From: an uncultured Croceitalea sp.
GTDB taxonomy: Bacteria; Bacteroidota; Bacteroidia; Flavobacteriales; Flavobacteriaceae
Direction of reading: 5' to 3'
Length of the DNA stretch: 64,000 nucleotides
Assembly: GCA_947499565.1 (NCBI GenBank)
Contig: CANMOV010000002.1
Span: forward strand, 682,001 to 746,000
The stretch's first letter is position 1. Every line of letters starts with the position of its first letter. The position numbers and the translations under genes are program-made. Shown here in pieces: positions 2 through 20,092 of this stretch. Below the pieces are notes generated by a model that did not search any database, had not been told where the DNA came from, and worked only from the letters and a program-made list of their open reading frames with translations.

Positions 2-223
2 GCATTTGATACCATGGGTTTTGAAAGAATTGGTTTAGGAGCTCATTCAGAAAATATTATAAGCATTGCTGCTATGAAGAGTTTGGGGTGCAAGCAGGAA
101 GGTATAATTCGAAATATTTTTCCTTCAATAGATGGAGAAGGGAGATCAGATGCAATTCTATTTGGAGCTTTAAAAGAGGAATGGTATGCCAGTATTAAAG
201 ATAATTTAAAGAACAGATTATGA
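2..223 (+). CDS. GNAT family N-acetyltransferase, C-terminal part (cut by window start)
   Basis: The reading frame is open from base 2 with no start inside the window; the in-frame ATG at 14 is internal. The visible 73 residues match the end of RimJ/RimL-type GNAT acetyltransferases: a segment AFDTMGFERIGLGAH, then NIISIAAMKSLGCKQEG, which is the acetyl-CoA-binding end of the fold (the usual N-x-x-S-x-x-A-M-x-x-L-G-F pattern, with Cys in place of Phe). These enzymes transfer acetyl groups to proteins, amino acids or small amines; the substrate cannot be told from this part. The stop overlaps the next start by 4 bases (ATGA), so the two are probably translationally coupled. Confidence 0.8.
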   Translation, partial: AFDTMGFERIGLGAHSENIISIAAMKSLGCKQEGIIRNIFPSIDGEGRSDAILFGALKEEWYASIKDNLKNRL

Positions 224-1824
224 ATTACTTAGATTATATAATAATTGTAGTTTACCTTATTGGTTTTTTAGGAATAGGGTACTTCTTTAAAGAAAATAAA
301 AGTTCTGGGGATTATTTTTTAGGGGGAAGAAGCATGGGTTGGTTGCCGTTGAGCTTATCTACAATGGCCACACAATTATCCGCAATTAGTTTTATTTCTG
401 CACCAGCTTTTGTTGGGTTAAAAGAAGGCGGAGGACTGCAATGGTTAACTTATGAATTTGGTGTTCCATTGGCTATGGCTTTTTTACTAATAGCAGTTAT
501 ACCCACTTTATATAAATCCGGAATTGTTAGTGTTTACGAGTATTTAGAAAAGCGTTTTGATGCATCTTCTCGACTGTTAATTAGTTTTGTTTTTCAAATA
601 AGCCGCTCAGTTGCTACAGGTGTTATGGTTTATACAATGGCATTAATATTACAAGCAACTGTCGGGGTAGACTTTTGGATTTCTATTTTAATTATTGGAG
701 TAATAACATTAGTATACTCATTTCAAGGCGGAATGAAAGCTGTTATCTGGGGCGATGTAATACAAATGGTGATTTTGTTTTTAGGAATTATCATTTGCTT
801 AGTTTATGGAATAAGCGAATTGGGTGGGTTTGAAAATTTTCTTACCAATGTAGATCAGGACAGACTTACTGCTGTTGACTTTAGTAAATGGGGTTTTAAT
901 AACGCAGACGGAAACGATGAATTTGGATTTTGGCCAATGGTAATAGGAGGTTTTTTCCTATATGCCTCCTACTATGGAACAGATCAAACTCAATCACAAC
1001 GCTTACTTTCTGCTAAAGGAATGCCTACTATTAAAAAACTATTATTGGCAAATGGGCTTTTTAGATTTCCGCTAACACTTACTTACTGCATTATGGGGCT
1101 TGTTTTGGGAACATTATTACTTCAAGATGCAGGATTTCAGGAAATGATGGATGCTACATATCAAGCTAATATAGGTTCATTAGAAGGTAAAAAAGCGGAT
1201 TTAATGGTTCCTGTGTTTATCATAAACTATCTGCCAAATGGAGTTATAGGTATTTTAATTGTAGCTATTATGTCTGCTGCAATGTCTTCTTTAAGTTCTA
1301 CCGTAAACTCATTATCTGCAGTAACTATGGAAGATTTTGTAAAAAGATTTAATCCAGGAATGACCGATAAAAAATACGTAATGAATTCCCGACTTTTATC
1401 GCTCTTTTGGGGCTTGGTTTGTCTCTTCTTTGCCTTTTTTGCTGGTAGTATAGAGGGAACTGTAATTGAGGTAATTAATAAAATTAGTTCTGTCTTTTAT
1501 GGCCCGATTTTAGCGGCTTTTATCTTAGCAATTCTTACTAAGAAAACCCATGCAGTTGGCGCTAACGTTGGTATTATTGTCGGTGTTCTATTTAATATGT
1601 ACTTATGGTTATATGTGCCAGAAGTATTTTGGTTTTGGTGGAATGCCATTGGCTGTTTAGTAACTATGTTGGTGGCAATCGTAGTTAGTCGCGTTGTTAA
1701 AAAAGATGTAAATGAAGGTTTAGAGGTGGTGTTTTATGCAGGTAAGAAAGAGCTCTTCATTTTGTTAAGCTTTTTCATCGTGATAATATTAGTTAGTGTT
1801 TCATTACCTTCATTATTCAGTTAA
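220..1824 (+). CDS. Sodium:solute symporter (SSS family) transporter
   Basis: A 534-residue polytopic membrane protein with about 13 hydrophobic segments. The N-terminal segment, the motif DYFLGGRSMGWLPLSLS and the glycine/serine-rich helix near SAAMSSLSSTVNSLSA are typical of the solute:Na+ symporter family (SSS). It should use the Na+ gradient to import a small organic solute. Its start overlaps the acetyltransferase stop and a glycerate kinase follows 11 bases later, so the solute could be glycerate or another compound that leads to it, but this is inference from position only. The Na+ gradient it needs may come from the Na+-NQR encoded later in the window. Confidence 0.9.
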   Translation: MNYLDYIIIVVYLIGFLGIGYFFKENKSSGDYFLGGRSMGWLPLSLSTMATQLSAISFISAPAFVGLKEGGGLQWLTYEFGVPLAMAFLLIAVIPTLYKSGIVSVYEYLEKRFDASSRLLISFVFQISRSVATGVMVYTMALILQATVGVDFWISILIIGVITLVYSFQGGMKAVIWGDVIQMVILFLGIIICLVYGISELGGFENFLTNVDQDRLTAVDFSKWGFNNADGNDEFGFWPMVIGGFFLYASYYGTDQTQSQRLLSAKGMPTIKKLLLANGLFRFPLTLTYCIMGLVLGTLLLQDAGFQEMMDATYQANIGSLEGKKADLMVPVFIINYLPNGVIGILIVAIMSAAMSSLSSTVNSLSAVTMEDFVKRFNPGMTDKKYVMNSRLLSLFWGLVCLFFAFFAGSIEGTVIEVINKISSVFYGPILAAFILAILTKKTHAVGANVGIIVGVLFNMYLWLYVPEVFWFWWNAIGCLVTMLVAIVVSRVVKKDVNEGLEVVFYAGKKELFILLSFFIVIILVSVSLPSLFS

Positions 1825-1835
1825 TATCATCTAAA

Positions 1836-2978
1836 ATGAAGTTTGTACTTGCTCCAGATAAATACAAGGGCTCCCTTACTGGAATGGAATTCTGTAATGC
1901 GGTTGAAAAGGGGCTTCGAATGATTTTTAATGATTTAGAAATTGTAAAAATACCTTTGGCAGATGGTGGGGATGGAACCATAGAAGTAGTTAAAAAATAT
2001 TTGAATGCTGATTCAGTAGTAGTAAGCGTTTCGGATCCACTATATAGACCAATACGATCTGCCTATTTACTTTCTAGTAATAAGAAAACAGCTTTTATAG
2101 AAATGTCTGAAGCTTCTGGATACAAATTGCTTCAAAAGAGCGAATTAAACTGCATGTATACCACATCTATAGGCACTGGCGAGCTAATTGCAGATGCTTT
2201 AGATAAAGGTGTCGAAGAAATTATTCTAGGTATCGGAGGGAGTGCTACTAATGACGGAGGAATGGGAGTAGCTTCTGCATTAGGTTATGAGTTTTTAGAT
2301 AAAAACGAGGATGTATTAAACCCCGTTGGAGAGAGTTTAGTTAGGGTAAAGAAAATCAATAAAAATAATATCCATGCAAGACTTGCAAAAGTAAAGTTTA
2401 GCGTGGCTTGTGATGTTGCCAACCCTTTTTATGGAAAAGACGGAGCAGCTTATGTATATGGTCCACAAAAAGGAGCAAACCCAAAAGAAGTGGCATCATT
2501 GGATATAGGTCTTAAGAATTTTGCAAACATTATTAAATCTGAACTAGGGTTTGATGTGCAAAATTTAAATGGCTCTGGAGCGGCAGGAGGATTAGGTGGC
2601 GGAGCGGCTGCTTTTCTGAACGCAACACTAAAATCTGGTATTGATTTAATTAAAGAAATTTCCAATTTCGATAATACGATTACCAATGCAGATTGGATTA
2701 TAACAGGAGAGGGTCGATTAGATACACAAACCCTTTCTGGAAAAACTATTGCAGGAGTGTTAGCTTCAGCAGAAAGAAAAGGTATTCCGGTTGCGGCTTT
2801 ATGTGGATCTGTTCTTCTAACTAAAGAAGAACAGGATAAGACAGGATTAAAATATGTTTCCGCTGTTTCTAAGGATACGGAAAGTTTAGAAATAGCTATG
2901 AAAAATAGTTATGAAAACCTGGTTCATGCAGCACATAGTTTTGGAAAAATAATTACCCAAAACAAGTATTCTTCCTAA
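1836..2978 (+). CDS. Glycerate kinase (GlxK/GarK family)
   Basis: A 380-residue soluble protein of usual family length. It opens with VLAPDKYKGSLTG, and carries LADGGDGTIEVV, LGIGGSATNDGGMG and ITGEGRLDTQTLSGK, all hallmark motifs of the GlxK/GarK family. These kinases phosphorylate D-glycerate with ATP, giving 2-phosphoglycerate for lower glycolysis. It lies 11 bases after the symporter gene in the same direction, so the two are likely co-transcribed. A 116-base gap with no gene separates it from the Rieske gene set downstream; whether it takes part in that set is not shown by the sequence. Confidence 0.92.
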   Translation: MKFVLAPDKYKGSLTGMEFCNAVEKGLRMIFNDLEIVKIPLADGGDGTIEVVKKYLNADSVVVSVSDPLYRPIRSAYLLSSNKKTAFIEMSEASGYKLLQKSELNCMYTTSIGTGELIADALDKGVEEIILGIGGSATNDGGMGVASALGYEFLDKNEDVLNPVGESLVRVKKINKNNIHARLAKVKFSVACDVANPFYGKDGAAYVYGPQKGANPKEVASLDIGLKNFANIIKSELGFDVQNLNGSGAAGGLGGGAAAFLNATLKSGIDLIKEISNFDNTITNADWIITGEGRLDTQTLSGKTIAGVLASAERKGIPVAALCGSVLLTKEEQDKTGLKYVSAVSKDTESLEIAMKNSYENLVHAAHSFGKIITQNKYSS

Positions 2979-3094
2979 TTATTTATTAGAAATTTTGGTT
3001 TATTCGTTAGGGTTATTTTTTTCCTTTACCTTAACGGTGATAAGTATACAGATTATTTACGACGGAATAGTATCCAATAATTAGAACCAATCCA

Positions 3095-4708
3095 ATGACT
3101 CAAAAACGTATTGAAATTGCCAAAATCTCTAGTTTAAAAGAAAAAGAGCCTGCATATGCCTTAGTTAAAAACACCGATTTAGTAATTATTAAACATGAAT
3201 CTGGCATTTCCGTTCTTTATGGTAGGTGTCATCATAGAGGTGCGCTGTTAGCAGATGGTCATATTAGCGGTCATAACTTAATTTGTGGTGTTCATGGGTG
3301 GGATTACCGCTATGACACAGGTATTAGTGAATACAATAATGATGAGCAATTACATAAGTTTCAGGAATATGTTGAGGGAGATTCACTTCAAATAGATGAA
3401 AATGAGATTGTGGCATTTGAGTCTAAACATCCGCAACCTTTCGACAGAGATTCTTATTTAGGAACTTATGCAGATACACATCCTGAAGAAACAGAACCGT
3501 ACACGGGTTATATAAAAGAATTAGCTGTAAATGGATTAAAAAATTTGGGACATCATGGATTTTCAGCATCAATGGGGGTTGATAGAAATACCCTCCCAAA
3601 ATGGAGTGATATCCAATTTCTTCCTGCGCAATTAGCATCTAGGCCTTTATTAGACCATGAAGAGGTTGCTACAAAAGTAATTATTGGGCCAAAAGCAAAG
3701 AAGCCACTGGTTTTGGATATACCGTTATTTGTTAGTGATATGAGCTTTGGAGCGCTTTCTAGAGAGGCTAAAATCGCGTTATCTAAGGGATCGGAAATGG
3801 CAGGAACAGGGATATGCTCAGGAGAAGGTGGAATGCTCCCCGATGAACAAAAAAATAATTCAAAATACTTTTACGAATTGGCATCGGCTCAGTTTGGTTT
3901 TTCCTGGGACAAATTAGACAATGTTCAGGCATTTCACTTTAAAGGCGGGCAAGGGGCTAAAACTGGAACAGGAGGTCATCTACCAGGAAGTAAAGTGAGC
4001 AAGGAAATTGCAGAAGTTCGTGGATTAAAGGAAGGTGAGACAGCAATTAGCCCAGCCACCTTTCCAGATTTTAATGGAGTTAAAGATTTTAAAACATTTG
4101 CAGCGAAAGTAAGAGAACGTACTGGTGGAATTCCTATTGGTTTTAAGATAGCGGCAAGTCATATAGAAAAAGATATTCAGTTCGCCCTAGATGTTGGGGT
4201 AGACTATATAATTCTCGATGGTAGAGGAGGTGGAACAGGTTCCGCTCCGACTATTCTTAGAGATAATATAAATGTTCCAACCATTCCTGCATTAGCGAGA
4301 GCTAGAAAGTATTTAGATAAAGTTGGAGCAATAGATGTAACGCTTGTCATAACAGGTGGTTTACGAATCGCTGAAGATTTTGCAAAAGCTATGATGATGG
4401 GTGCAGATGCTATTGCAGTTTCTAATTCTGCTATACAGGCAATAGGTTGTTTAGGCATGAGAGCATGTGGTTCCAATAACTGTCCAGTAGGTATTGCAAC
4501 ACAGAAAGAATCTTTACGTAGTAGATTAATTATTGATTCTTCAGCAAAGCAACTTGCTAACTTCTTCAATGCTACAAATGATTTGATAAAAGTAATTGCG
4601 CGTTCCTGTGGATATGATGATGTTTCAAAATTTAATCATGATGACCTTTCTACTTTTAAAAAAGAAATGCATGAGCTAGCAGGAATTCCTTTTGCAGGAG
4701 TAAATTAA
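3095..4708 (+). CDS. Rieske-fused glutamate-synthase-like FMN oxidoreductase
   Basis: A 537-residue soluble protein with two parts. Residues 1-110 form a Rieske [2Fe-2S] domain with ligands C45-x-H47 and C64-x-x-H67. Residues about 130-520 form an FMN-binding glutamate synthase domain (the GltB/archaeal GltS-like TIM barrel), seen in the segments MSFGALSREAKIALSKG, FHFKGGQGAKTGTGGHLPG and ILDGRGGGTGSAP. Cysteines C452, C458 and C463 in ACGSNNCPVGIATQ match the 3Fe-4S ligands of glutamate synthase. No glutaminase domain is present, so normal GltB chemistry with glutamine is not expected. The fusion implies an electron path between the Rieske centre and the FMN/3Fe-4S centres. It begins a tight set of seven genes; the next starts 11 bases on. 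The real substrate is unknown. Confidence 0.85.
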   Translation: MTQKRIEIAKISSLKEKEPAYALVKNTDLVIIKHESGISVLYGRCHHRGALLADGHISGHNLICGVHGWDYRYDTGISEYNNDEQLHKFQEYVEGDSLQIDENEIVAFESKHPQPFDRDSYLGTYADTHPEETEPYTGYIKELAVNGLKNLGHHGFSASMGVDRNTLPKWSDIQFLPAQLASRPLLDHEEVATKVIIGPKAKKPLVLDIPLFVSDMSFGALSREAKIALSKGSEMAGTGICSGEGGMLPDEQKNNSKYFYELASAQFGFSWDKLDNVQAFHFKGGQGAKTGTGGHLPGSKVSKEIAEVRGLKEGETAISPATFPDFNGVKDFKTFAAKVRERTGGIPIGFKIAASHIEKDIQFALDVGVDYIILDGRGGGTGSAPTILRDNINVPTIPALARARKYLDKVGAIDVTLVITGGLRIAEDFAKAMMMGADAIAVSNSAIQAIGCLGMRACGSNNCPVGIATQKESLRSRLIIDSSAKQLANFFNATNDLIKVIARSCGYDDVSKFNHDDLSTFKKEMHELAGIPFAGVN

Positions 4709-4719
4709 AAAAACCAAGT

Positions 4720-6672
4720 ATGAGTGATAAAAAAGTAGTTTGGCATAAGGTTCTAGATAATAAAAAGGATTTGCCCGAAGGAAGAGTGAAGACTGTTACT
4801 GCAGCTCATAAAGGTATTTGCCTGACGCATTTTGAAGGTAAGTTTTCAGCTTTAGATAATCGATGTCCACATCAGGGAGGCCCTTTAGGAGAAGGCTCAA
4901 TTGAAAATGGAATGTTACGCTGCCCATGGCATGGTTGGGATTATCATCCATGTACGGGAAATTCACCTGGTGGATTTGATGATGGTATAGAAACCTTTGC
5001 TATTAAAGATGATGGTGATTCCATTTATGTTGGGCTAGAAGAAGAGGCAGACCATCAAACAACGGTTTCAGATATTATGGTTGAAACCATGGTGAATTGG
5101 GGTGTTACTAAAGTATTTGGCATGGTTGGTCATTCTAATTTAGGGTTTGCAGATGCTATGAAGCGTCAAGAAGAAAAAGGAAATTTAAATTTTTATGGTA
5201 TTCGTCATGAAGGAGCTGCGGCTTTTGCAGCTTCTGCATATGGTAAATTAACAGGCAAGCCCGCGGCTTGTTTCTCTATAGCAGGACCTGGGGCAACTAA
5301 TATGTATACCGGTATGTGGGATGCAAAGGTGGACAGGGCGCCACTATTGGCACTTACTGGACAGGTAGCTACACAAGTAGTAGGTACAGGTAATTTTCAA
5401 GAGGTAGATTTGGTAAGAGGATTTAATACCGTTGCAGAGTTTAATCAGCGTGTCCAAAGTGATAGTAAACACGCAGAATTAATGTCTTTAGCAGTAAAAA
5501 ATGCGATTTTAAAACGGGATGTTTCACATTTAACTTTTCCGGATGAAGTACAGGAGAAATTGGCAAAAGCTACTGCTACTGCGCAAACACCGGATAAGAG
5601 AATAACCCAAATGGAAATTGCACCGCCAAAAGAAGCGGTTAATGATGCTATAGCATTAATTAAAAAATCAAAACGACCAGTCATTATTATGGGTCATGGC
5701 GCAAGAGCACATAAAAAGGATGTTGTAAAGTTTGCTGAAAGTTTGAATGCGGCGGTTGTTACAACCTTTAAGGGGAAAGGTCTTATTCCTGATAACCATC
5801 CTCTAGGTGGAGGTGTTTTAGGACGTAGTGGAACTCCAATCGCTTCTTGGTTTATGAATGAAGCTGATTTGCTGTTGGTATTTGGAGCCTCTTTTTCAAA
5901 CCATACAGGAATAACTCCAAAAAAGGCAATTATTCAAATTGACTTTGACCCTATGGCTTTGAGCAAATTTCATAAGGTTGAGGTAGCTGTTTGGGGAGAA
6001 ATCTCAAGAACCCTGGAAATTTTTAATAGTGAACTTAAGGGACAACTAAATACAGAAGATCAAACAGATGAAATAGCAGCGCGTTGGAAAATCTGGAAAG
6101 AAGAAAAAGCTAAACGTCTTTTGGAGACTTCAGAAAAAGGAATTAGTTCTATTGCAGTCTTTGAAGCTATGAATGCACTTACGCCTGATAATGCGGTCAT
6201 GTGCGTTGACGTAGGTAATAACGCCTATTCTTTTGGGCGCTATTTTGAGCCAACAAATCAGGATTTTTTAATGTCAGGATATTTAGGGTCAATAGGTTTT
6301 GCCTTACCGGCAGCTATTGGTGCTTGGACGGCAGTTGGCAATACACGACCTGTTGTTGCTGTAGCGGGGGATGGTGGCTTATGTCAGTATCTTGCGGAGA
6401 TTACGACATTGGTAAAATATAAGATGCCTGTGAAATTAATTGTTTTAAACAATCATGAACTAGGTAAGATATCAAAAGAACAAAGAGCTGGTGAATTTGA
6501 TGTTTGGAAAACGTCACTCTCTAATCCAAACTTTGCGGAATTTGCAAGATCTTGTGGTGCTTGGGGTAAAAGAGTAGAGGACCAAAACAGTTTACAGAAA
6601 GAAATGAAGGATATGTTTAAACAAGACGGCCCTGCAGTTTTGGAAATAATGACCGATGTAAACCTGATATAA
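4720..6672 (+). CDS. Rieske-fused thiamine-diphosphate enzyme, pyruvate-oxidase-like
   Basis: A 650-residue protein. Residues 5-105 are a Rieske domain (C49-x-H51, C68-x-x-H71). From about residue 115 it is a three-domain ThDP enzyme: the N-terminal domain has the cofactor-activating glutamate E164 in RHEGAAAFAAS and the segment GMWDAKVDRAPLLALTGQ, which is close to pyruvate oxidase (PoxB/POX) enzymes; the C-terminal domain has the ThDP-Mg motif G550-D-G-G ending in N577-N578. Pyruvate oxidases decarboxylate pyruvate and pass electrons to flavin and then to quinone or oxygen; here the added Rieske domain may be the electron outlet. Acetolactate-synthase-like chemistry cannot be excluded. E164 argues against glyoxylate carboligase, which lacks this residue. 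Same operon as the gene before, 11 bases apart. Confidence 0.85.
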   Translation: MSDKKVVWHKVLDNKKDLPEGRVKTVTAAHKGICLTHFEGKFSALDNRCPHQGGPLGEGSIENGMLRCPWHGWDYHPCTGNSPGGFDDGIETFAIKDDGDSIYVGLEEEADHQTTVSDIMVETMVNWGVTKVFGMVGHSNLGFADAMKRQEEKGNLNFYGIRHEGAAAFAASAYGKLTGKPAACFSIAGPGATNMYTGMWDAKVDRAPLLALTGQVATQVVGTGNFQEVDLVRGFNTVAEFNQRVQSDSKHAELMSLAVKNAILKRDVSHLTFPDEVQEKLAKATATAQTPDKRITQMEIAPPKEAVNDAIALIKKSKRPVIIMGHGARAHKKDVVKFAESLNAAVVTTFKGKGLIPDNHPLGGGVLGRSGTPIASWFMNEADLLLVFGASFSNHTGITPKKAIIQIDFDPMALSKFHKVEVAVWGEISRTLEIFNSELKGQLNTEDQTDEIAARWKIWKEEKAKRLLETSEKGISSIAVFEAMNALTPDNAVMCVDVGNNAYSFGRYFEPTNQDFLMSGYLGSIGFALPAAIGAWTAVGNTRPVVAVAGDGGLCQYLAEITTLVKYKMPVKLIVLNNHELGKISKEQRAGEFDVWKTSLSNPNFAEFARSCGAWGKRVEDQNSLQKEMKDMFKQDGPAVLEIMTDVNLI

Positions 6673-6890
6673 TGGAATTAATTATCAACGTTTTCTTAAT
6701 TGTATTAGGACTGTACTTTGGTTTAGGTTTGATTTTTGGGCTGTATTTTGTTTTTATCGGCGGGACTAAACTAGATTCCTTTCTTAAGGATAGCAAAAAG
6801 ATAGTTCGGTTACTTTTATTTCCAGGTGTAATAGCCACCTGGCCTTTTTTACTTAGGAAACTCTTAAATACAGAACAAGATGATAGCTAG
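6672..6890 (+). CDS. Small two-helix membrane protein in the Rieske operon
   Basis: A 72-residue protein not recognised as a named family. Residues about 3-32 are a long hydrophobic helix rich in glycine and aromatic residues, and residues about 45-62 a second one around FPGVIATWPFLLR. The ATG overlaps the previous stop by one base and its own end overlaps the next gene by 11 bases, so it is translated as part of the set. A role as a small anchor or subunit of a membrane redox complex is inferred from position only. Confidence 0.7.
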   Translation: MELIINVFLIVLGLYFGLGLIFGLYFVFIGGTKLDSFLKDSKKIVRLLLFPGVIATWPFLLRKLLNTEQDDS

Positions 6891-7242
6891 CCAAAGAAAA
6901 GCGCATAAGTTCATTTGGTTGGGATTGTCCATACTAATAGCTGCTTTATTAGTTCTTGTAATCAAAGATTTAGATTTTTCCTCCAGCACTTTAGAAACAC
7001 AGAAAGGGCTTCCATTTGAGGCTATGCGCTCTGAAAATAGTATTGTGCTCGTTAAGTTAAATGAACCATTAAAAACTCCTTCAGCATTGGTATATGAAAT
7101 TAATGCGAATAAAGAATTGGGAGCAGTATTAGGGGAGTTAAACGGAAAAGGAGAATATAAGTTTACCTTGTCCAAAAATGCTGTTGGAATTACTGTAATC
7201 GATAAAATAAAGAATCAAAAAATCTATACAACTACTTTCTAA
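6880..7242 (+). CDS. Single-span membrane-anchored protein of unknown function
   Basis: A 120-residue protein with one N-terminal membrane helix (about residues 10-30) followed by a small extracytoplasmic domain of about 85 residues rich in short beta-like stretches. No cysteine or histidine pattern suggests a metal site. It overlaps the small membrane protein before it by 11 bases and the membrane cytochrome after it by one base, so it is almost certainly co-translated with them. Function not recognised; a structural subunit of the membrane complex is the natural guess. Confidence 0.7.
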   Translation: MIASQRKAHKFIWLGLSILIAALLVLVIKDLDFSSSTLETQKGLPFEAMRSENSIVLVKLNEPLKTPSALVYEINANKELGAVLGELNGKGEYKFTLSKNAVGITVIDKIKNQKIYTTTF

Positions 7243-8273
7243 TGGGATTAGATTACAAATTCGTATTGTGGAATAAGCATAAAAAGACTTATGACAAGTT
7301 CATTGCCTTAGGAATGGTTTTGTATTTGATATTGTTTTTTGTCCTAACGCTAGTAACCAATGCTGAGTTGACCGTTGAGACAATAATTATTAGAGCATTT
7401 GGGTCATTGGCAATTATAGTTTTGCATATTATTTTAATAATTGGTCCATTAACCAGGCTTAATCCTAAGTATTTACCAATTCTATACAATCGCAGACATT
7501 TAGGTGTAAGTATGTTTTTAGCTGCTTTAGTTCATGGTCTTTTTTCGATAATCAATTTTCATACTTTAGGAGATAAGAATCCAATTGTATCCATTTTTAC
7601 TTCAAATATGGATTATGGTTCATTACATAATTTCCCTTTTCAAGTGCTTGGTTTTTTTGCATTACTTATACTTTTCGTAATGGCTTCAACAAGCCATGAT
7701 TTCTTTTTGAAAAACTTATCTCCAAAGATTTGGAAACAGTTACATATGTTAGTGTATTTGGCATATGCCCTTGTGATTTTACATGTTTTTTTAGGCGCCT
7801 TTCAGCAGGAAACATCTCTTTTCACAATTGGTATTTTAATATTAGGATTTCTTATGATTTCTGGTCTACACGTAATAGCAGCATTTAAGGAAGGTAAAAT
7901 AGATAGCGCTAAAGGAGAATTAGATAGTAATGGATGGTTAAAGGTTTGTTATACCGATGAAATTGAAGAAAGTAGAGCGAAAATATTTACTGTAAAAAAT
8001 GAACGAGTTGCAATTTTTAAAAATGAAGACAAACTCTCAGCAATTCACAATGTTTGCAAACACCAAGGAGGACCTTTAGGAGAGGGCAAAATAGTAGATG
8101 GTTGTATTACTTGTCCATGGCACGGGTATCAATATTTACCTCATAATGGGCAATCACCACCACCATTTACTGAAAAAGTAAATACCTATGAACTTAAAGT
8201 TTTAGAGGGTATTGTATATATTAACCCAGACGCAATGGCTGAAGGTACCGAGGTAGCACCTATAGTATGTTAG
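7242..8273 (+). CDS. Ferric-reductase-like membrane cytochrome with C-terminal Rieske domain
   Basis: A 343-residue protein. Residues about 15-215 contain roughly six membrane helices with histidines placed as in the ferric reductase/MsrQ (YedZ) family of b-type cytochromes, including HIILIIGPLTR and RRHLGVSMFLAALVHG. After a short linker, residues about 230-335 form a soluble Rieske domain with C272-x-H274 and C291-x-x-H294. Its segment HQGGPLGEG is identical to the one in the ThDP enzyme of this operon, so the two Rieske modules probably share a recent origin. The protein could carry electrons between soluble Rieske partners and haem or quinone in the membrane; the direction is inference. 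The gene overlaps its neighbours on both sides. Confidence 0.85.
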   Translation: MGLDYKFVLWNKHKKTYDKFIALGMVLYLILFFVLTLVTNAELTVETIIIRAFGSLAIIVLHIILIIGPLTRLNPKYLPILYNRRHLGVSMFLAALVHGLFSIINFHTLGDKNPIVSIFTSNMDYGSLHNFPFQVLGFFALLILFVMASTSHDFFLKNLSPKIWKQLHMLVYLAYALVILHVFLGAFQQETSLFTIGILILGFLMISGLHVIAAFKEGKIDSAKGELDSNGWLKVCYTDEIEESRAKIFTVKNERVAIFKNEDKLSAIHNVCKHQGGPLGEGKIVDGCITCPWHGYQYLPHNGQSPPPFTEKVNTYELKVLEGIVYINPDAMAEGTEVAPIVC

Positions 8274-9064
8274 AAATGGAAGAAAAAGAAGAGTTTTATA
8301 TAGGTTATTTGGATGAAGTTGGCGAAAAGACCAAAAAAACATTGAAGCGTTTTGTATTCACTGCTTTGGGGTTGTTGCTGGTATGCGGGTTTTTATTTTC
8401 ATTTTTCCAAAACCCTGCTGTAAACAGTTCATTTGACTTTAATAATCCAACCAAGGTTTCTGGAGTTTACCATGAATCACCGTATCCCATGTTGAGGGTT
8501 AAATTAGCGGATGATGCGTATAAAGATATTTTGCTTTTAGGATTTGGTAAGTTTGGCCCAAATAAATATCTAAAAGAGATAAAAAAGGAGACCAGTAGTT
8601 TGGTCGGTAAAGGTCTTACCATAGAAGGACAACTTATTTATTATAATGGGAAAACACTTTTGGAAATTGATGATAGTCAGAAAATAACGCTGAGTAATTC
8701 AAAAATGCAACCTATCACTGCGGCGACTCAATTAGATACTAAAGAATTAGAAGGTGAAATAGTAGACCCAAAATGTTATTTCGGTGTTATGAAACCTGGA
8801 TATGGTAAAATTCATAGAAGCTGTGCAGCGCTTTGTATTTCTGGTGGAATGCCACCAGTACTGGTATCTGTTAATGAAAATGGTATGGAGGAATATTTTT
8901 TATTGACTAATTTGAAAGGAAACCCTATTCATCAAGACATACTACCATATATAGGACAACCATCAATGCTTACGGGAAAAGTGTTTGATCTAGGAGATTG
9001 GAAGGAAATGAGGATTGATGTTGCTCAAATAAGAAAACTAAATAGAGAATCTTCAATTTATTAA
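8267..9064 (+). CDS. Membrane-anchored conserved-cysteine protein of unknown function
   Basis: A 265-residue protein with one membrane helix near residues 25-45 and a large outer domain. The C-terminal half has a striking motif around DPKCYFGVMKPG and HRSCAALCISGG, with cysteines C170, C186 and C190 that could bind a metal, haem or a cluster. I have seen this motif type in hypothetical proteins of other bacteria but know no assigned function. It starts inside the end of the cytochrome gene (7-base overlap); a second ATG at 8276 would avoid the overlap and is an alternative start. Membership in the Rieske redox set is inferred from the overlap. Confidence 0.75.
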   Translation: MLEMEEKEEFYIGYLDEVGEKTKKTLKRFVFTALGLLLVCGFLFSFFQNPAVNSSFDFNNPTKVSGVYHESPYPMLRVKLADDAYKDILLLGFGKFGPNKYLKEIKKETSSLVGKGLTIEGQLIYYNGKTLLEIDDSQKITLSNSKMQPITAATQLDTKELEGEIVDPKCYFGVMKPGYGKIHRSCAALCISGGMPPVLVSVNENGMEEYFLLTNLKGNPIHQDILPYIGQPSMLTGKVFDLGDWKEMRIDVAQIRKLNRESSIY

Positions 9065-9065
9065 G

Positions 9066-9512
9066 ATGAATAGAATTTTGTTGGCTTTTGTTTTTTTAAT
9101 TGCATATGGTGGTTTTGCGCAATCCATAGACTATAATACTAAAAAAGGATATGTGGCAAAAGGCTATGATGTTGTAGCCTATTTTGATAATAAAGCAGTT
9201 GAAGGTAAAGATTCGTTTGTTACTACCTATGATAAAGTAAAGTTTAAGTTTTCAAGCCAAGAAAATCTTGAAGAATTTAAAAACAAGCCAAAGAAATACC
9301 TTCCAAAATATGGCGGTTATTGCGCATATGCGGTAGCTGTTTCAAGTAAGAAGGTACCTGTAAACCCTGAAACTTTTGAAATAAGAAATGGCGAATTGTA
9401 TTTGTTCTATAATTCTGGGAAGAACAATACCTTAACACTTTGGAAAAGAGAATCGCCTGAAAACCTCAGAGTTAAGGCAGATGAAAATTGGAAAGAAATA
9501 AAATACCAGTAA
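9066..9512 (+). CDS. Exported YHS domain protein
   Basis: A 148-residue protein with an N-terminal signal peptide ending near GGFAQS. The rest is a YHS domain: GYDVVAYFDNKAVEGK, a YDKVKFKFSS strand, then KKYLPKYGGYCAYAVA. YHS domains often bind copper or other metals and are found alone or in metal transport ATPases and oxygenases. It starts one base after the previous stop, so it closes the operon; the protein should act in the periplasm close to the membrane complex. A metal carrier role is plausible but not shown. Confidence 0.85.
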   Translation: MNRILLAFVFLIAYGGFAQSIDYNTKKGYVAKGYDVVAYFDNKAVEGKDSFVTTYDKVKFKFSSQENLEEFKNKPKKYLPKYGGYCAYAVAVSSKKVPVNPETFEIRNGELYLFYNSGKNNTLTLWKRESPENLRVKADENWKEIKYQ

Positions 9513-9525
9513 TTTTCTGGTTTTA
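9504..9525 (+). terminator. Weak candidate terminator after the YHS gene
   Basis: A short hairpin with a 5-base stem (accag at 9505-9509, ctggt at 9517-9521) followed by a short T run. It overlaps the stop of the YHS gene. The stem is weak, so read-through to the LysE gene is likely. Confidence 0.3.
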
Positions 9526-9534
9526 TAAAGAGTA

Positions 9535-10188
9535 ATGTTAAAAGCTTTAAAACTTTTTGGTGCTGGTCTTTTGATTAGTTTTTTAGGTGCCTTACCCTTA
9601 GGAAGCCTAAATATTACCGCTTTTGATATTTCTGCTTCCCAAAATGTACAAAATGCACTTTTGTTTTCTTTTGCAGCTATTTTCATAGAGCTTGTTTATG
9701 TCCGGTTAACTTTATGGAGCAGCCAAAAAGTAAAGCTAGAAGGTAAATGGGTTTATTTCTTATTGTCTTTAGGAGTTTTACTTCTTTTTTATTTAGCAAT
9801 ATCTAGTTTTATTACTGCTATACACATTTCAGATATTGGTACTTCTTCATCAATACTGCCGAAAATAACCTCTCCAGTTTTATTGGGTTTATTGCTTAGT
9901 GCACTAAATCCACTTCAAATACCTTTTTGGCTTACTTGGAATAAAGTTTTGGAATCAAAAAAAATACTTAAGCACAATACCATTTCATTTGTAAACTATA
10001 TGTTTGGTATAGGTACTGGTACCTTAATAGGGTTATTAGTATTTATTTTTGCTGGAAAGCAAATCGTAGCTAATTACGAGCAATATGCGCGCATAACCAA
10101 TTTCTTGCTTGGTCTGCTCTACCTCGGTTTTTCTTTCTATCTTTTATTTTTATTAGTTAAAAAACGTCATCAATTTAAAATACAATAA
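9535..10188 (+). CDS. LysE family transporter
   Basis: A 217-residue membrane protein with about six hydrophobic segments. The start LISFLGALPLGSLNITAFDIS is the usual LysE/RhtB opening, with the small-residue and proline-rich first helix. The family exports amino acids or related compounds. A second conserved stretch LLSALNPLQIPFWLTWNK matches the NP motif in the middle of the family. It lies 22 bases after the YHS gene and 4 bases before a DinB gene, in a gene run of mixed content. Substrate unknown. Confidence 0.85.
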   Translation: MLKALKLFGAGLLISFLGALPLGSLNITAFDISASQNVQNALLFSFAAIFIELVYVRLTLWSSQKVKLEGKWVYFLLSLGVLLLFYLAISSFITAIHISDIGTSSSILPKITSPVLLGLLLSALNPLQIPFWLTWNKVLESKKILKHNTISFVNYMFGIGTGTLIGLLVFIFAGKQIVANYEQYARITNFLLGLLYLGFSFYLLFLLVKKRHQFKIQ

Positions 10189-13783: not shown

Positions 13784-14542
13784 CTAACTTTTGTATAATG
13801 CGAGTGCTTCGATAAAAAATGCTAGGACAGTATTCTCATCAACTTCCAAGGCAGGTAAAATAGCACCTTTAAAACCATTGTTTTTCCACTCACCATGGGT
13901 TAATTTGGAAAAATTGTTTGTTGCTAATGCATTATGACCTTTATAACCACTTATATAAAAATAGTGGTTGTCTGAGACCGAGTCGGGAATTGCCATGCCA
14001 ATACCAATAGATTTTCCAGAACCATTATTTAGTTCCACAAATGCACCTGTATCTAAGTGATGAGGCCAAATACGAATATCAGATTTCAATTTTTCATTAC
14101 TTAAGAAGGCTGCTAGTGAGCTCTGAGCTAATATGCGTAGCTGCAACAATTCACTTAAGTCATTTAAGTTTGATAGCTCAAATTTAAAGTCATTTGATAT
14201 CTTATAAGGTAGGTCGTAATGTAAATCGTAGCGATAAGCATTTTTAATGGAAGATGCAATGGCCATTTTTGAAATCCAATCAACAATTACATCATGAATT
14301 TTACCATCCAACGCAAAGGAAATTTTACCATTTTTGGAACCCCATTGCAGCGTAAAATCATCAAAGCTAAAAGCTAAGTAGGTTCCAGAATCCTCTAAAT
14401 TCCATGTTCTTAATGTGTGGTCTTCCATAAAAAACCCAACATTAGTATGACTATCGTCTGAACGATGTTCTAAAAAACTTTTTCCAGCAGTTGCTAGGTA
14501 CTGGGCAGCTAGGTGCAACTGTTTGTTCATATTGTTATTCAT
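13784..14542 (-). CDS. Hypothetical protein of unknown family
   Basis: A 252-residue soluble protein with no signal peptide, no membrane helix and no motif I recognise. It has a mixed alpha/beta look, with notable stretches IWPHHLDTGAFVEL and YFYISGYKGHNA. Histidines in IWPHHLDTG could bind a metal. The first ATG overlaps the end of the preceding gene by 8 bases; the second ATG at 14530 would remove the overlap. It is downstream of a small beta-barrel-like gene in the same direction and is likely co-transcribed with it. Confidence 0.75.
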   Translation of the reverse strand: MNNNMNKQLHLAAQYLATAGKSFLEHRSDDSHTNVGFFMEDHTLRTWNLEDSGTYLAFSFDDFTLQWGSKNGKISFALDGKIHDVIVDWISKMAIASSIKNAYRYDLHYDLPYKISNDFKFELSNLNDLSELLQLRILAQSSLAAFLSNEKLKSDIRIWPHHLDTGAFVELNNGSGKSIGIGMAIPDSVSDNHYFYISGYKGHNALATNNFSKLTHGEWKNNGFKGAILPALEVDENTVLAFFIEALALYKS

Positions 14543-15053
14543 GATGTGATTTCTTTTGTGGTTTTTTGAGTAATACTATAGCACCGAGTGTAAAAAACTC
14601 GTCGCTTAATTCACCCGCTACACCTTTAAACTCTGCAAATAGCAGAACTCGATTTATACTATAATGAGCTCCAAAACCATAATTAAATCCGAAAGCGCTA
14701 TGCTTTTCTACCTCTTCAGTATCCAATAGTAACCGCTCTTTTTCATTTGTATAATTAAATCCGCTTAAAGGATATACTCCAAACCGATGCGCTACTTCAA
14801 ATACATAATGTGCGTTAAGATTAAGTTCAAAAAGGCTTGTTTCATAGCCAGGGTTAGACATTTGATAAGGAAACACTGAAATTTCTGGTCCAAAACAAAA
14901 TACAGGACTAGTGCCAATGTATGCACGAATGTTGCCGCCAACTAAAGAAGAAGTGCCTGTAGGACCTAAGCCAACCATCCATCCTTCTTGTGCAGTAGAA
15001 ACTATGGTGAATAGGAAAATAGTAAAAATTGAAAACAAGCGGAGTATATACAT
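14535..15053 (-). CDS. Exported hypothetical protein, probable outer membrane barrel
   Basis: A 172-residue protein with a signal peptide (FTIVSTAQEGW region gives the cleavage site). The mature part is glycine- and aromatic-rich with alternating strands, for example FGFNYGFGAHYSINRVLLFAEF, and ends KKPQKKSHHE, a basic tail rather than the usual terminal aromatic. This fits a small outer membrane beta-barrel of Bacteroidota, but no family is recognised. It is first in a two-gene minus-strand set that is divergent from the signalling block. Confidence 0.65.
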   Translation of the reverse strand: MYILRLFSIFTIFLFTIVSTAQEGWMVGLGPTGTSSLVGGNIRAYIGTSPVFCFGPEISVFPYQMSNPGYETSLFELNLNAHYVFEVAHRFGVYPLSGFNYTNEKERLLLDTEEVEKHSAFGFNYGFGAHYSINRVLLFAEFKGVAGELSDEFFTLGAIVLLKKPQKKSHHE

Positions 15054-15748: not shown

Positions 15749-16291
15749 ATGAAAGGTATAGTATTTACAGAGTTTTTGGAGATGGTTGAATCCAAGTTTG
15801 GACTTGAGGTAACAGATGCTATTATCGAGGACTCAAATTTAGCATCTGAAGGTATTTATACTTCCATTGGTACATACGAGTTTAACGAAATGGTTAGCCT
15901 AATTACTAGTTTAAGTGATAAAGTTGGAATTGATGTAAATACTTTAATATATACATTTGGACATTACTTATTCAATAGTTTGGGCGCAGCTCATCCAGAG
16001 GTTATAAAAAGCTATTCCAATCCTCTGAGTCTTTTATACTCTATTGAAGACCATATTCATGTTCACGTAAAAAAGCTTTATCCTGAAGCTGAGTTACCTA
16101 CCTTTAAAATACTGGAGAAAACAGAGAATTCTATTTCAATGATATATTCGTCCTCTAGGGGACTTTATCGTTTGGCACACGGCTTAATTGAAAAGTGTTT
16201 TGAGCATTTTAATAGTTCTGCACAAGTTACTTATGAACTAATGAAGGATGATGGGACCGAGGTGAAATTCGACATTGTTCAAAATGGATAG
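15749..16291 (+). CDS. H-NOX haem nitric oxide sensor
   Basis: A 180-residue stand-alone H-NOX (HNOB) domain. The proximal haem ligand is most likely H104 in DHIHVHVKKLYPEAELP, and the porphyrin-propionate motif Y-x-S-x-R is Y133-S-S135-S-R137. These are the defining residues of the family. Such proteins bind NO at the haem and control a partner kinase or cyclase. The gene ends inside the start of a soluble histidine kinase gene (8-base overlap), the classic H-NOX/HnoK arrangement. No distal-pocket Tyr assignment was attempted, so NO versus O2 preference is inferred from the kinase context. Confidence 0.93.
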   Translation: MKGIVFTEFLEMVESKFGLEVTDAIIEDSNLASEGIYTSIGTYEFNEMVSLITSLSDKVGIDVNTLIYTFGHYLFNSLGAAHPEVIKSYSNPLSLLYSIEDHIHVHVKKLYPEAELPTFKILEKTENSISMIYSSSRGLYRLAHGLIEKCFEHFNSSAQVTYELMKDDGTEVKFDIVQNG

Positions 16292-17882
16292 TAAAGAGGT
16301 ACAACTTTTAAAAAAGGCTTTAGAGAGGCAAAAGAAAGCCCGAAAACAAGCAGAAAGAATATTAGAAACAAAGTCCAAAGAACTTTATGATGTTACCTAT
16401 CATCTAAAGCAAGCTAACAACAAACTTGAAGGTTTATTAAATGTGAAAACTTCTTCATTTGAAGGAGCTTTTATCAATATTATAGACCCATATATTGTTA
16501 TGGATTTGGAGTTCAATGTTATTAATATGAATGTTTCCGCTAAAGAATTTTTGGGTTATGATCATACAAAGGAAGATATAAATCTTTCCAAGTTGGTGCA
16601 TAAAGACTACATTAACTATACTGCTGAATCCATTAAAGTATTAATGGAGGTTGGTATTTTAAAGAATTATCGGTCAAAAATTGTTCTAAAGGATGGTACA
16701 GAAAAATTTGTGGAAATAAATAGCAGTATCATTTATGACAAATCCAAAAAACCAATTGCCGCTCAGGGGATAATAAGAGATATTAGTCAAGAAAATGAAA
16801 TAAAACAGCTGTTAGCGGAACAAAGAAAGCAGTTAGATATTATTGTTCAAAATTCACCTTTGGGTATTGCATTAACGATTAACTCAAAAATCATCAAGGC
16901 AAACCCAGCTTTTTCTTTATTATTAGGCTATTCCAATACAGAGTTAAAATCTCTTGAAATCATAGATCTATTTAAAAACAAGCAAGATGTTACCTCATTA
17001 GAATTTGTTCGAACATTAAAGTCAAAAGAAACAGATAATTTTTCAACAATAAATAATTTTTCAAAGAAAAATGGAAAATCAATATTAGCTAAAACTAATA
17101 TTAGTACAGTTAGAGATAATCGTGGCGAGGTTGAATTTCAAGTAGCTATAATTGAAGATATTACTCAGCAAAAAATATTAGAATTACAAAAAGAGGAGTT
17201 GCTAAAGGATTTGGAGAATAGCAATCAAGAACTTCAAGAGTATGCACATATTGTTTCTCATGATTTAAAATCACCTTTAAGAAGTATCAGTGCTATTACT
17301 AGCTGGATTAAAGAAGATTATTATGAAATGTTAGATGATAATGGCAAGAATAATTTGAGTTTATTACAGGATAAAGTTGAATCCATGGATAAATTAATCT
17401 CCGGGATTTTAGAATATTCAACTGCAAATAGTTCAGATTTAAAAAACACGAAAGTTGATCTAAACAAGATAGTTGAGGAAATTAAGGAAAGTATTTATAT
17501 CCCAAAAAATGTGGAAGTAATAATTCCAAAGTCATTACCTACAATTAAAGCAGATGGTACAAAAATGTACCAGTTGTTTCAAAATATAATTGGAAATGCA
17601 GTAGTGCATATTGATAAAAAGAATGGCTTAGTTGAAGTCATTTTTAAAGAGACTGAAGATTTTTGGCAGTTTTCAATTAAAGATAATGGCGTTGGAATAG
17701 CTGAAAAGTATCATAAAAAAATATTTGAAATTTTTCAATCAGTTGGAGAAAAAGAGAGATCCACTGGGATAGGTCTATCAATTGTTAAGAAAATTGTTGA
17801 TCGTTATGATGGAAAGGTTTGGGTGGATAGTAAGATTGGTGCAGGCACCAATTTTCATTTTACCTTAAAGAAATTAATCTAG
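16284..17882 (+). CDS. Soluble PAS-PAS sensor histidine kinase, probable H-NOX partner
   Basis: A 532-residue protein starting at the ATG at 16284; the in-frame TTG three codons earlier is less likely. Order: a charged coiled coil (about 1-50), a PAS domain (about 60-170), a second PAS domain (about 185-300), then HisKA with phosphoacceptor H326 in HIVSHDLKSPLR and a HATPase domain with N-box QNIIGNAVVHI, G1 DNGVGIA and G2 STGIGLSIV. No membrane helix is seen, so it is cytoplasmic, as expected of a kinase regulated by a soluble sensor. It overlaps the H-NOX gene by 8 bases and is 12 bases from the FIST gene. Confidence 0.9.
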   Translation: MDSKEVQLLKKALERQKKARKQAERILETKSKELYDVTYHLKQANNKLEGLLNVKTSSFEGAFINIIDPYIVMDLEFNVINMNVSAKEFLGYDHTKEDINLSKLVHKDYINYTAESIKVLMEVGILKNYRSKIVLKDGTEKFVEINSSIIYDKSKKPIAAQGIIRDISQENEIKQLLAEQRKQLDIIVQNSPLGIALTINSKIIKANPAFSLLLGYSNTELKSLEIIDLFKNKQDVTSLEFVRTLKSKETDNFSTINNFSKKNGKSILAKTNISTVRDNRGEVEFQVAIIEDITQQKILELQKEELLKDLENSNQELQEYAHIVSHDLKSPLRSISAITSWIKEDYYEMLDDNGKNNLSLLQDKVESMDKLISGILEYSTANSSDLKNTKVDLNKIVEEIKESIYIPKNVEVIIPKSLPTIKADGTKMYQLFQNIIGNAVVHIDKKNGLVEVIFKETEDFWQFSIKDNGVGIAEKYHKKIFEIFQSVGEKERSTGIGLSIVKKIVDRYDGKVWVDSKIGAGTNFHFTLKKLI

Positions 17883-17894
17883 AAAGTCGGAAAT

Positions 17895-19028
17895 ATGAAA
17901 TTTATTCAAGCTAAAAAAGAAAACAACTCAGCTTTTGAGTTTACGACACCGGTTTTGGAATTAGATAATCCTTTGGTGCTAGTTTTTGGTAATAGATTTA
18001 TGCTACAGGATAAGAATCTTTATAAAGAAGTAAGAGATTTATTCCCTTCTGGGCATTTAGTTTTTGGAACCACTTCAGGAGAAATATTAGCTGAAAATGT
18101 TTTTGAAAATTCTATTGTAATAACGGCGATTGAATTTGAAAAAAGCAACTTTTTAGTTAAAACTAAGAATGTTTCGGATTTTGATAATGATGATGAAAAA
18201 CTTGGAAAAAAATTAATAGCTGAATTTCCTACAACAGATTTAAGACATGTTTTTATAGTCTCTGAGGGGAGTACGGTTAATGGTAGTGCATTAATTAATG
18301 GTTTAGAGGAAAATAAAAATCAAGGGATAGGTCTTTCCGGGGGATTATGTGGTGACGATGCTAGGTTTGAACTTACTCTTGCTTCTTACAATGCCTCTCC
18401 AAAAGAAGGTGAGATTGTCGCAATTGGTTTTTACGGAGATACTTTGGAAATAACAAGTGCAAATTTTGGAGGTTGGACTGCGTTTGGCCCAGAAAGAGTC
18501 ATAACAAAATCTAAGGATAATATTTTGTACGAACTTGATGGTAAACCAGCTTTAGACCTATATAAAAAGTACTTAGGTGACAAGGCAAAAGAATTGCCAA
18601 AATCTGCATTATTATATCCCTTGAGTGTTAGAACTACTGAAAATGAAGAACCCATTGTAAGGACTATTCTTAATATAGATGAGGAGAGAAACGCAATGAT
18701 TCTGGCTGGTGATGTTCCTATAGGTTCTAAGGTGCAATTAATGATGTCGACAGTAGACGATATTGCCAATGGTGCTAATCACGCCGCAAAATTGGCAGTT
18801 TTAAATAGAAAAGATAAAGCAGAGTTAGCCTTATTAATATCCTGTGTAGGTAGAAAACTTGTTATGGATCAACGAACAGAAGAAGAAGTTGAAGAAGTTA
18901 TCTCTGTTATAGGTGAACATGCTTGTATTTCTGGCTTTTATTCCTACGGAGAAATGGCGCCTTTTGCTGGCCAGGAAGCCTGCAAACTACATAACCAAAC
19001 AATGACTTTAACCTTATTTAGCGAGTAA
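17895..19028 (+). CDS. FIST domain sensor protein (NosP-like)
   Basis: A 377-residue soluble protein made of FIST_N (about 20-215) and FIST_C (about 220-365). FIST_C is shown by the ending ISGFYSYGEMAPF and CKLHNQTMTLTLF, typical of the family. FIST proteins stand next to sensory kinases; a group named NosP binds haem and NO and controls its kinase. Here it sits between two soluble histidine kinases and just after an H-NOX/kinase pair, which supports a NosP role, but haem binding is not proved by the sequence. Its stop shares a base with the start of the second kinase. Confidence 0.88.
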   Translation: MKFIQAKKENNSAFEFTTPVLELDNPLVLVFGNRFMLQDKNLYKEVRDLFPSGHLVFGTTSGEILAENVFENSIVITAIEFEKSNFLVKTKNVSDFDNDDEKLGKKLIAEFPTTDLRHVFIVSEGSTVNGSALINGLEENKNQGIGLSGGLCGDDARFELTLASYNASPKEGEIVAIGFYGDTLEITSANFGGWTAFGPERVITKSKDNILYELDGKPALDLYKKYLGDKAKELPKSALLYPLSVRTTENEEPIVRTILNIDEERNAMILAGDVPIGSKVQLMMSTVDDIANGANHAAKLAVLNRKDKAELALLISCVGRKLVMDQRTEEEVEEVISVIGEHACISGFYSYGEMAPFAGQEACKLHNQTMTLTLFSE

Positions 19029-20092
19029 TGCATTCTTTACTAAAAAGACAATTAAAAAAGTATTTGCCACGGCATCTTAAGGATGAGCGTGGAATAGATG
19101 TTTTTTTAGATACTATTAGTAATTCCTATAACAATTATGATGAAAAACTGCATATGTTGCAGCGGGCTACCGCGATTAGTTCAGAAGAGTTGTTTATTGC
19201 AAATAGAGCAATAGAGAAGGAAGCAACAAGACAAAAACAGATTTTGGATAGTTTGGAAGAAGCTATAACTAGTCTAAAATCCAATTTAAAGCAAGAGAGC
19301 GATTTTGAATATGATTTAAAGGATGAGTTTGATGCCAGTAAGTTGGCAAAGCATATTACTGGTCTTGCAAATAAAGTTGCAGATATGGCCAGCGAAAAGA
19401 ATGTCCTTTTAAAGAACCTAGAAACGCAAAACGATTCTCTTAATAACTATGCGCATATTGTATCTCATGATTTAAAGTCTCCTATAAGGAATATAAATGC
19501 TTTAATGACTTGGATAATGGAAGATGAAAAAGAAAAATTTTCCGCTATCAGTAAGAATAATGCCATGCTAATATTAGAGAATCTTGAGAAAATGGATAAG
19601 CTAATAAATGGTATTTTAAGACATGCTACAATAGATTCCACAGAAGAGCACAAAACTACCTTTGAGTTACGCGATATGCTACAAGAAATAGAGAAAACTA
19701 TTTATGTTCCAGATAATGTTACTATAAGATATGGAATTAACCTTCCTAAAATAACGATTGAGAGAAATAAGTTGGAGCAAATGTTTATGAATTTAATCCT
19801 TAATGCGATTACTGCAACAGAGCATCTTAAAGATGGACTTATTGTAATAAAATTCATTAAGAATAAAGATTTTTGGGAATTTAGTATTTCGGATAATGGT
19901 AAAGGTATTCCGTTAGAACACCAAAAAAGCATTTTTAATATGTTTAAAAAATTGGACACTAATAATAGTGCAACCGGCATTGGATTGGCGCTCGTAAAAA
20001 AAATAGTTAATTTCTACAAAGGAAAGATTAACCTTGAAAGTGAGGAGAATAAGGGGACAACATTTAATATTCAACTAAGCAAAGTAGCATAA
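19028..20092 (+). CDS. Soluble histidine kinase, probable FIST partner
   Basis: A 354-residue cytoplasmic kinase with no membrane helix. Residues 1-130 are mostly helical and charged and hold no PAS domain that I can see. HisKA has H147 in HIVSHDLKSPIR, nearly identical to the H-box of the other kinase in this block. The HATPase domain shows LNAITATEHL, DNGKGIPLEHQ and SATGIGLALV. It begins on the last base of the FIST stop and ends on the first base of the Hpt gene, so the FIST-kinase-Hpt genes are one translational unit. Confidence 0.9.
   Translation: MHSLLKRQLKKYLPRHLKDERGIDVFLDTISNSYNNYDEKLHMLQRATAISSEELFIANRAIEKEATRQKQILDSLEEAITSLKSNLKQESDFEYDLKDEFDASKLAKHITGLANKVADMASEKNVLLKNLETQNDSLNNYAHIVSHDLKSPIRNINALMTWIMEDEKEKFSAISKNNAMLILENLEKMDKLINGILRHATIDSTEEHKTTFELRDMLQEIEKTIYVPDNVTIRYGINLPKITIERNKLEQMFMNLILNAITATEHLKDGLIVIKFIKNKDFWEFSISDNGKGIPLEHQKSIFNMFKKLDTNNSATGIGLALVKKIVNFYKGKINLESEENKGTTFNIQLSKVA

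Follow-up and report, generated by a model that had tools for sequence, protein, structure and literature searches.

Rieske domains are known either as small soluble carriers or as relays within a single complex. Several described systems resemble parts of the locus reported here. The large subunit of glutamate synthase and stand-alone GltS-like proteins, which we take to be of the B. subtilis YerD type, are built on an FMN barrel and 3Fe-4S cysteines, and E. coli PoxB and the pyruvate oxidases are built on a ThDP fold. Dioxygenase systems of the CarAc type employ Rieske ferredoxins. MsrQ/YedZ of the ferric reductase domain (FRD) superfamily possess a six-transmembrane (TM) module with conserved histidines in TM3 and TM5 and transfer electrons across the membrane, according to PMC3591440. 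This 2013 account also lists a domain model in which an FRD protein carries a Rieske extension.

Here we describe a bacterial operon in which all three kinds of catalytic scaffold (glutamate-synthase-like, pyruvate-oxidase-like and ferric-reductase-like) carry a Rieske domain. The operon lies in a 64,000-nucleotide stretch of DNA from an uncultured Croceitalea sp., which is called the window below. Its seven genes, and two nearby genes that enter the comparison, are as follows.

3095..4708, plus strand: GltR, N-terminal Rieske domain and glutamate-synthase-type FMN/3Fe-4S domain
4720..6672, plus strand: PoxR, N-terminal Rieske domain and pyruvate-oxidase-like ThDP enzyme
6672..6890, plus strand: M72, core subunit, a small protein in which two segments are hydrophobic
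6880..7242, plus strand: S120, RKxHxxxW motif, then one N-terminal membrane segment, then a part that is probably outside
7242..8273, plus strand: FreR, ferric-reductase-domain cytochrome with six TM segments and a Rieske domain at the C-terminus
8267..9064, plus strand: Cys265, a single TM helix followed by two OB-like domains that are probably outside
9066..9512, plus strand: member of the YHS-domain (seleno)protein family with N-terminal signal-like segment, an optional neighbour
13784..14542, minus strand: c7-family protein, 9 kb from GltR in the window
14535..15053, minus strand: c19-family protein, outer-membrane beta-barrel-like

Results

Three Rieske fusion genes in one operon

The seven open reading frames, all on the plus strand, lie where a sequence-only reading of this DNA had placed them (3095-4708 through 9066-9512). 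The tight spacing that it reported is also evident: four of the six junctions are overlaps, and the other two are gaps of 11 bases and 1 base. Pfam places a Rieske domain in three of the seven genes, with scores of 43.5, 56.5 and 60.4 bits against a cut-off of 20.3; Glu_synthase, TPP_enzyme_N/M/C and Ferric_reduct are matched as well. The cluster ligands are exactly those named in that reading, and they are conserved: C45/H47/C64/H67 of GltR in 96% of 47 rows (which include two GltS-like proteins, from L101 and L111, without a Rieske domain), C49/H51/C68/H71 of PoxR in 55 of 55 rows, and C272/H274/C291/H294 of FreR in 81 of 81 rows. The whole genome yields four Rieske matches. That three of them fall in this operon indicates that the arrangement is not due to chance.

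The fourth Rieske gene encodes a small exported, lipoprotein-like protein (G000 C1:1478292; L004:1456-1914, minus strand) and perhaps belongs to another redox set, with neighbours that we take to be thioredoxin-like and ApbE-like genes. The close same-strand run of genes extends beyond position 9512, as far as 13726. A promoter and terminator scan gave 29 promoter-like sites versus 44 expected from shuffles, and inspection by eye of the stretches upstream of GltR yielded no motif that we would defend. Further along the window, a plus-strand group at 15749-20092 comprises an H-NOX gene, a PAS-type kinase-like gene, a FIST-domain gene and a second kinase-like gene (HNOB and FIST by Pfam; the kinase-like names are our assumption), which is likely a gas-sensing signalling set. 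A leishmanolysin-like metalloprotease gene, matching Peptidase_M8 over part of the profile, is present at 23514-24296 on the minus strand.

A membrane core shared across genera and phyla

The operon is composed of two linked modules, a membrane core of M72, S120, FreR and Cys265, and an enzyme module of GltR and PoxR. A contig scan supplied the FreR loci, the best 80 of 506 relatives, and the counts given for this sample lean to close relatives; the nearest named ones are Flavobacteriaceae, with 84% identity for the FreR of L051, and we accordingly take the window's phylum to be Bacteroidota. Cys265 is found at 79 and M72 at 78 of these 80 loci, and the misses are at contig ends. Nine of 247 genomes from the window's phylum carry full-length FreR; full-length Cys265 is found in exactly these nine, side by side with FreR.

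Cys265 has a confidently predicted fold of one helix plus two domains (pLDDT 89), which we read as probably OB-like, helped by PDB fold matches that are weak. The second domain carries C170, H183, C186 and C190, all invariant in 80 rows. This Cys3His OB domain also stands alone in small secreted-looking proteins of five other genomes (L178-L182), in one case near a metal-sensitive repressor.

A long S120 gene is called at 51 of the 80 FreR loci. At most of the others, the interval between M72 and FreR holds a frame that opens with (L)RKxHxxxW and continues into one membrane helix. The part of S120 that is probably outside is reduced in other lineages to a short peptide. H9 of S120 is invariant (63 rows). 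Searching upstream of FreR with a strict pattern recovers the RKxHxxxW peptide at 69 of 84 sites (the 80 loci, the window and three Rhizobium loci), whereas up to 3000 control stretches gave no match. A looser form of the motif is seen by eye in 14 of the 15 misses, the exception being L123. The window copies of M72, S120 and Cys265 gave no match to a family in Pfam (E 0.1) or in NCBIfam (E 0.01); a PHROGs scan returned one weak match for M72, to a family of unknown function.

The core extends beyond the Bacteroidota. FreR and Cys265 are found together in five Rhizobium plasmid records, with identities of 41-43% and 29-31%, respectively; M72 is recognisable in L131, and the peptide motif is present in L131-L133. 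In the phylum of an Acidobacteria MAG (L128), 9 of 119 genomes carry FreR, at ten places. Cys265 adjoins it at nine of these, the tenth (L136) has M72, and the strict peptide motif is found at four of the ten. Linkage of the core across genera and phyla, in Bacteroidota, on Rhizobium plasmids and in the phylum of the Acidobacteria MAG, is well supported.

Both enzymes are linked to the core and separable from it

The concern that homologues of these genes might rarely occur together was not borne out. In the fetched flanks of the 80 FreR loci (best of 506), PoxR is present at 54 and full Rieske-GltR at 44, with both at 41 and neither at 23. Where a locus is without an enzyme, the genome sometimes holds it elsewhere, as evident for Rieske-GltR in 12 of 35 such genomes (6/13 plus 6/22) and for Rieske-PoxR in 8 of 25. 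Combining locus and genome for 79 of these loci (L100 was left out) raises the counts to 62 for PoxR, 56 for Rieske-GltR and 52 for both; ten have PoxR without GltR, four have GltR without PoxR, and 13 have neither, several of which are MAGs and may be incomplete. In six FreR genomes (G249, G253, G256, G267, G269 and G275), the GltR and PoxR that are distant from FreR are no more than a few kilobases apart, with a spacing of about 70 bases in G256.

The same association is seen in the 247-genome sample. Matches spanning the Rieske region were found in 35 genomes for GltR, 7 for PoxR and 9 for FreR, and the pairs FreR plus GltR, FreR plus PoxR and PoxR plus GltR in 8, 4 and 6 genomes. Rieske-GltR thus occurs in 8 of 9 FreR genomes versus 35 of 247 overall, and PoxR in 4 of 9 versus 7 of 247. 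Hypergeometric P values for the three pairs are 6e-7, 3e-5 and 3e-5, or 4e-6, 4e-4 and 2e-4 with the discovery genome removed, and both sets overstate the association because they ignore kinship. Linkage of both enzymes to the membrane core is well supported.

The enzymes also exist without the core. Rieske-GltR is present without FreR in 27 of its 35 genomes and PoxR in three (G088, G128 and G239). Two of these, G088 and G239, have GltR and PoxR together, as near neighbours in the former and on different contigs in the latter, which suggests that the Rieske domains of GltR and PoxR do not serve FreR alone. The G088 PoxR reading includes one in-frame TGA and may be damaged. Conversely, neither Rieske-GltR nor Rieske-PoxR was found in G247, the one genome searched from the phylum of L128, or in the one Rhizobium plasmid searched.

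The sequence-only reading had proposed a single system. Its linkage and its membrane redox role are well supported, whereas a fixed seven-gene unit is ruled out, given that core and GltR-PoxR module are separable and that the YHS gene accompanies FreR at 29 of the 80 loci (best of 506). It had also suggested that the Rieske domains form a docking or wiring set and that electrons move to the membrane, both of which we treat as hypotheses. The YHS gene tends to be a loose attachment that goes as much with the block after 9512: in L088 it is found, apart from the core, with LysE and DinB genes, and in L073, L097, L099 and L136 it is near FreR without LysE.

Neighbouring and swapped genes

Several genes recur around GltR and PoxR, namely a Na+/H+ exchanger (c6), c7, c15 (weakly DUF2721-like) and the barrel-like c19. 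In many other genomes a c7 relative adjoins GltR or PoxR, and in some a c19 relative lies between the two. Ten stretches have GltR without FreR or PoxR (L146-L155); in five of them c7 adjoins GltR or is a single gene removed from it, two of these being partial matches.

A flavoprotein, c26 (FMN_red family for the one member scanned), occupies the GltR slot at eight loci, for which no Rieske-GltR was found at the locus or in the genome. It looks as if c26 replaces GltR at these eight loci, several of which are close relatives. In L068 and L112, which have PoxR and no GltR, the locus starts too near the contig end to show the slot.

Upstream of the core, an SDR gene is present in all three Rhizobium loci and at each of the two FreR places of G247. 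The three Rhizobium plasmids also encode a ThDP enzyme about 3 kb away on the other strand, which in L131 is without a Rieske domain and 25% identical to PoxR. Two further neighbours were noted. In L069 and L095, a fusion of a 2Fe-2S ferredoxin domain with a nucleotide cyclase catalytic domain (by Pfam for the L095 copy) lies between GltR and PoxR, and is possibly a redox-sensing cyclase. In L103, L105, L110 and L159, a c79-family protein adjoins c7, GltR or M72, and for the L159 copy Pfam gives DM13 (electron transfer).

FreR is a ferric-reductase-domain protein with a Rieske tail

FreR matches Ferric_reduct (PF01794) with 51.1 bits versus a cut-off of 28. Six hydrophobic segments precede its Rieske domain, and the predicted fold contains six long helices (mean pLDDT 83). 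Ferric_reduct and Rieske-type domains are its only Pfam matches, with no FAD- or NADPH-binding domain among them, and its score of 46.9 bits does not reach the MsrQ NCBIfam equivalog cut-off of 130. The tail has the fold and ligands of CarAc-type Rieske ferredoxins.

Six histidines (H86, H98, H107, H152, H168 and H181) are invariant in the same 81 rows as the Rieske ligands. Of these, H98, H168 and H181 correspond to the set of three histidines that PMC3591440 describes for YedZ, and are predicted haem ligands in TM3 and TM5. H86 could act together with H168 to hold a second haem.

The positive-inside pattern, judged by eye, suggests that the Rieske tail of FreR should be cytoplasmic and thus on the side of GltR and PoxR. 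Neither enzyme has a hydrophobic segment, and the FreR domain follows the sixth segment, so all three Rieske domains should face the cytoplasm.

GltR and PoxR retain the features of their enzyme families

GltR, of 537 amino acids, matches the FMN/3Fe-4S synthase domain (PF01645) with 288.1 bits versus 20.4, and no glutamine amidotransferase domain was matched. Its 3Fe-4S cysteines (C452, C458 and C463, as C-x5-C-x4-C) are invariant in the 47 rows, and much of the aligned GltS site is retained. His295 aligns with a Gln of GltS that we take to be a residue of the 2-oxoglutarate site.

PoxR has all three domains (N, M and C) of the ThDP enzymes by Pfam, and its best PDB match is PoxB, with the 3eya alignment spanning PoxR residues 115-644. 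The RHE Glu and the FQE motif are retained, and Lys583 is at the position of a PoxB Phe, presumably one with a role in that enzyme. The alignment stops at residue 526 of 572 in PoxB, 6 residues short of the PoxR end; the C-terminal PoxB tail, which we take to bind lipid and meet the membrane, is therefore absent from PoxR. The nearest NCBIfam model is pyruvate oxidase, whose equivalog cut-off is not reached (best 419.1 bits versus 742), and PoxR is under the cut-off of every NCBIfam model listed (25 of 60).

The three Rieske groups are separate clades

A FastTree phylogeny was built from 102 Rieske domains, 28 from each group plus all 18 others, which were chosen by likeness to FreR and form a narrow outgroup. 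The FreR, PoxR and GltR groups each emerge as one clade (support 0.94-1.0), and no clade unites FreR with PoxR, GltR with PoxR, or FreR with GltR. This pattern suggests old, stable fusions. Three domains on the cytoplasmic side, each one clade, would also fit a shared potential level where the enzymes meet the cytochrome. The separate clades, as judged with this narrow outgroup, give no support to the idea that one of the Rieske domains was recently copied into the other two genes.

Discussion

We favour a model in which two Rieske-wired modules carry electrons across the membrane, with PoxR and GltR exchanging electrons with FreR and the haems connecting to Cys265, and give it a probability of roughly one half. 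PoxR would oxidatively decarboxylate pyruvate or a similar 2-oxo acid in the cytoplasm and deliver the electrons to its own Rieske domain, which would stand in for the lipid-binding tail of PoxB as the contact with the membrane. The FMN/3Fe-4S enzyme of GltR would exchange electrons through its own Rieske domain in the same manner. The cytoplasmic Rieske domain of FreR would accept electrons from either enzyme and pass them over one or two b haems to the anchored periplasmic Cys265 with its putative thiol or metal site, and M72 and S120 would be small membrane subunits of the FreR system.

We tentatively extend this model to a conduit of M72, S120, FreR and Cys265 that is shared across phyla, in which the Rieske domain of FreR is a common socket and those of PoxR and GltR are the plugs, an extension that is less likely than not. 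If it is true, 2-oxo acid and amino-acid metabolism could drive periplasmic reduction without NADH.

Other arrangements can be envisioned. PoxR and GltR might be a self-contained cytoplasmic pair with direct Rieske-to-Rieske transfer, where GltR makes an amino acid by reductive amination and FreR is a separate or overflow outlet. The existence of both enzymes without FreR in G088 and G239, the GltR-PoxR gene pairs away from FreR in six FreR genomes, and the retention by GltR of its 3Fe-4S cysteines and much of the GltS site are all consistent with such a pair. However, GltR is without an amidotransferase domain and has His295 at the presumed 2-oxoglutarate-site Gln, the presence of FreR strongly predicts both enzymes, and the G088 PoxR reading has its in-frame TGA; we consider the pair unlikely. 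The view of FreR as a quinone-linked hub that sends PoxR and GltR electrons to menaquinone, with Cys265 merely stabilising the complex, draws on PoxB, the quinone-linked pyruvate dehydrogenase, and on the finding of no MsrP-kind molybdopterin enzyme among ten genes scanned. It seems improbable to us, because the Cys3His set of Cys265 is invariant and the protein is strictly paired with FreR, both of which suggest that Cys265 has a role in redox or metal chemistry outside the membrane.

Electrons might even flow in reverse, with FreR fed by quinol or the periplasm, GltR supplied from the FreR Rieske domain, and PoxR no more than an additional donor. The sequence features fix no direction, and GltS enzymes are normally electron consumers. 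Nevertheless, FRE and NOX proteins of the same superfamily move electrons from the cytosol outward, as stated in PMC3591440, and reverse flow appears very unlikely. That the genes are unrelated and only neighbours by chance in this family might be argued from the loose gene order outside the core and the extra genes that come and go, yet the neighbourhood is repeated in varied arrangements in many genera and the genes co-occur away from the locus too. Chance neighbourhood is ruled out by the co-occurrence counts, and we consider unrelated genes exceedingly improbable.

Comparison with known systems

In our searches of open-access literature we found no described system for these fusions together, in agreement with the sequence-only reading. 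Three unrelated scaffolds that each seemingly gained a Rieske domain and stayed together would connect soluble enzymes to a membrane cytochrome in a new manner. Since the core is present in Bacteroidota, in Rhizobium and in the phylum of the Acidobacteria MAG, establishing its function would annotate many genomes, and the counts reported here supply a test set of core-only, enzymes-only and combined genomes.

Each component departs from its closest described relative. FreR is set apart from MsrQ/YedZ by a presumably cytoplasmic Rieske tail, by a further invariant histidine (His86) and by its association with Cys265 and with small subunits of its own. No MsrP-type partner or molybdopterin oxidoreductase domain was found in the ten genes scanned (220-10188). 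It also differs from NADPH oxidases and long ferric reductases, as it is without their FAD- and NADPH-binding domains. Its tail shares fold and ligands with the CarAc-type ferredoxins but is fused to a membrane cytochrome, and no dioxygenase was found among the same ten genes. PoxR has the ThDP fold of PoxB over the enzyme part, yet carries an N-terminal Rieske domain, has Lys583 for Phe and is without the C-terminal tail. Likewise, GltR shares the FMN barrel and 3Fe-4S cysteines with the large subunit of glutamate synthase and the stand-alone GltS-like proteins, and bears a Rieske domain in place of the amidotransferase domain of glutamate synthase.
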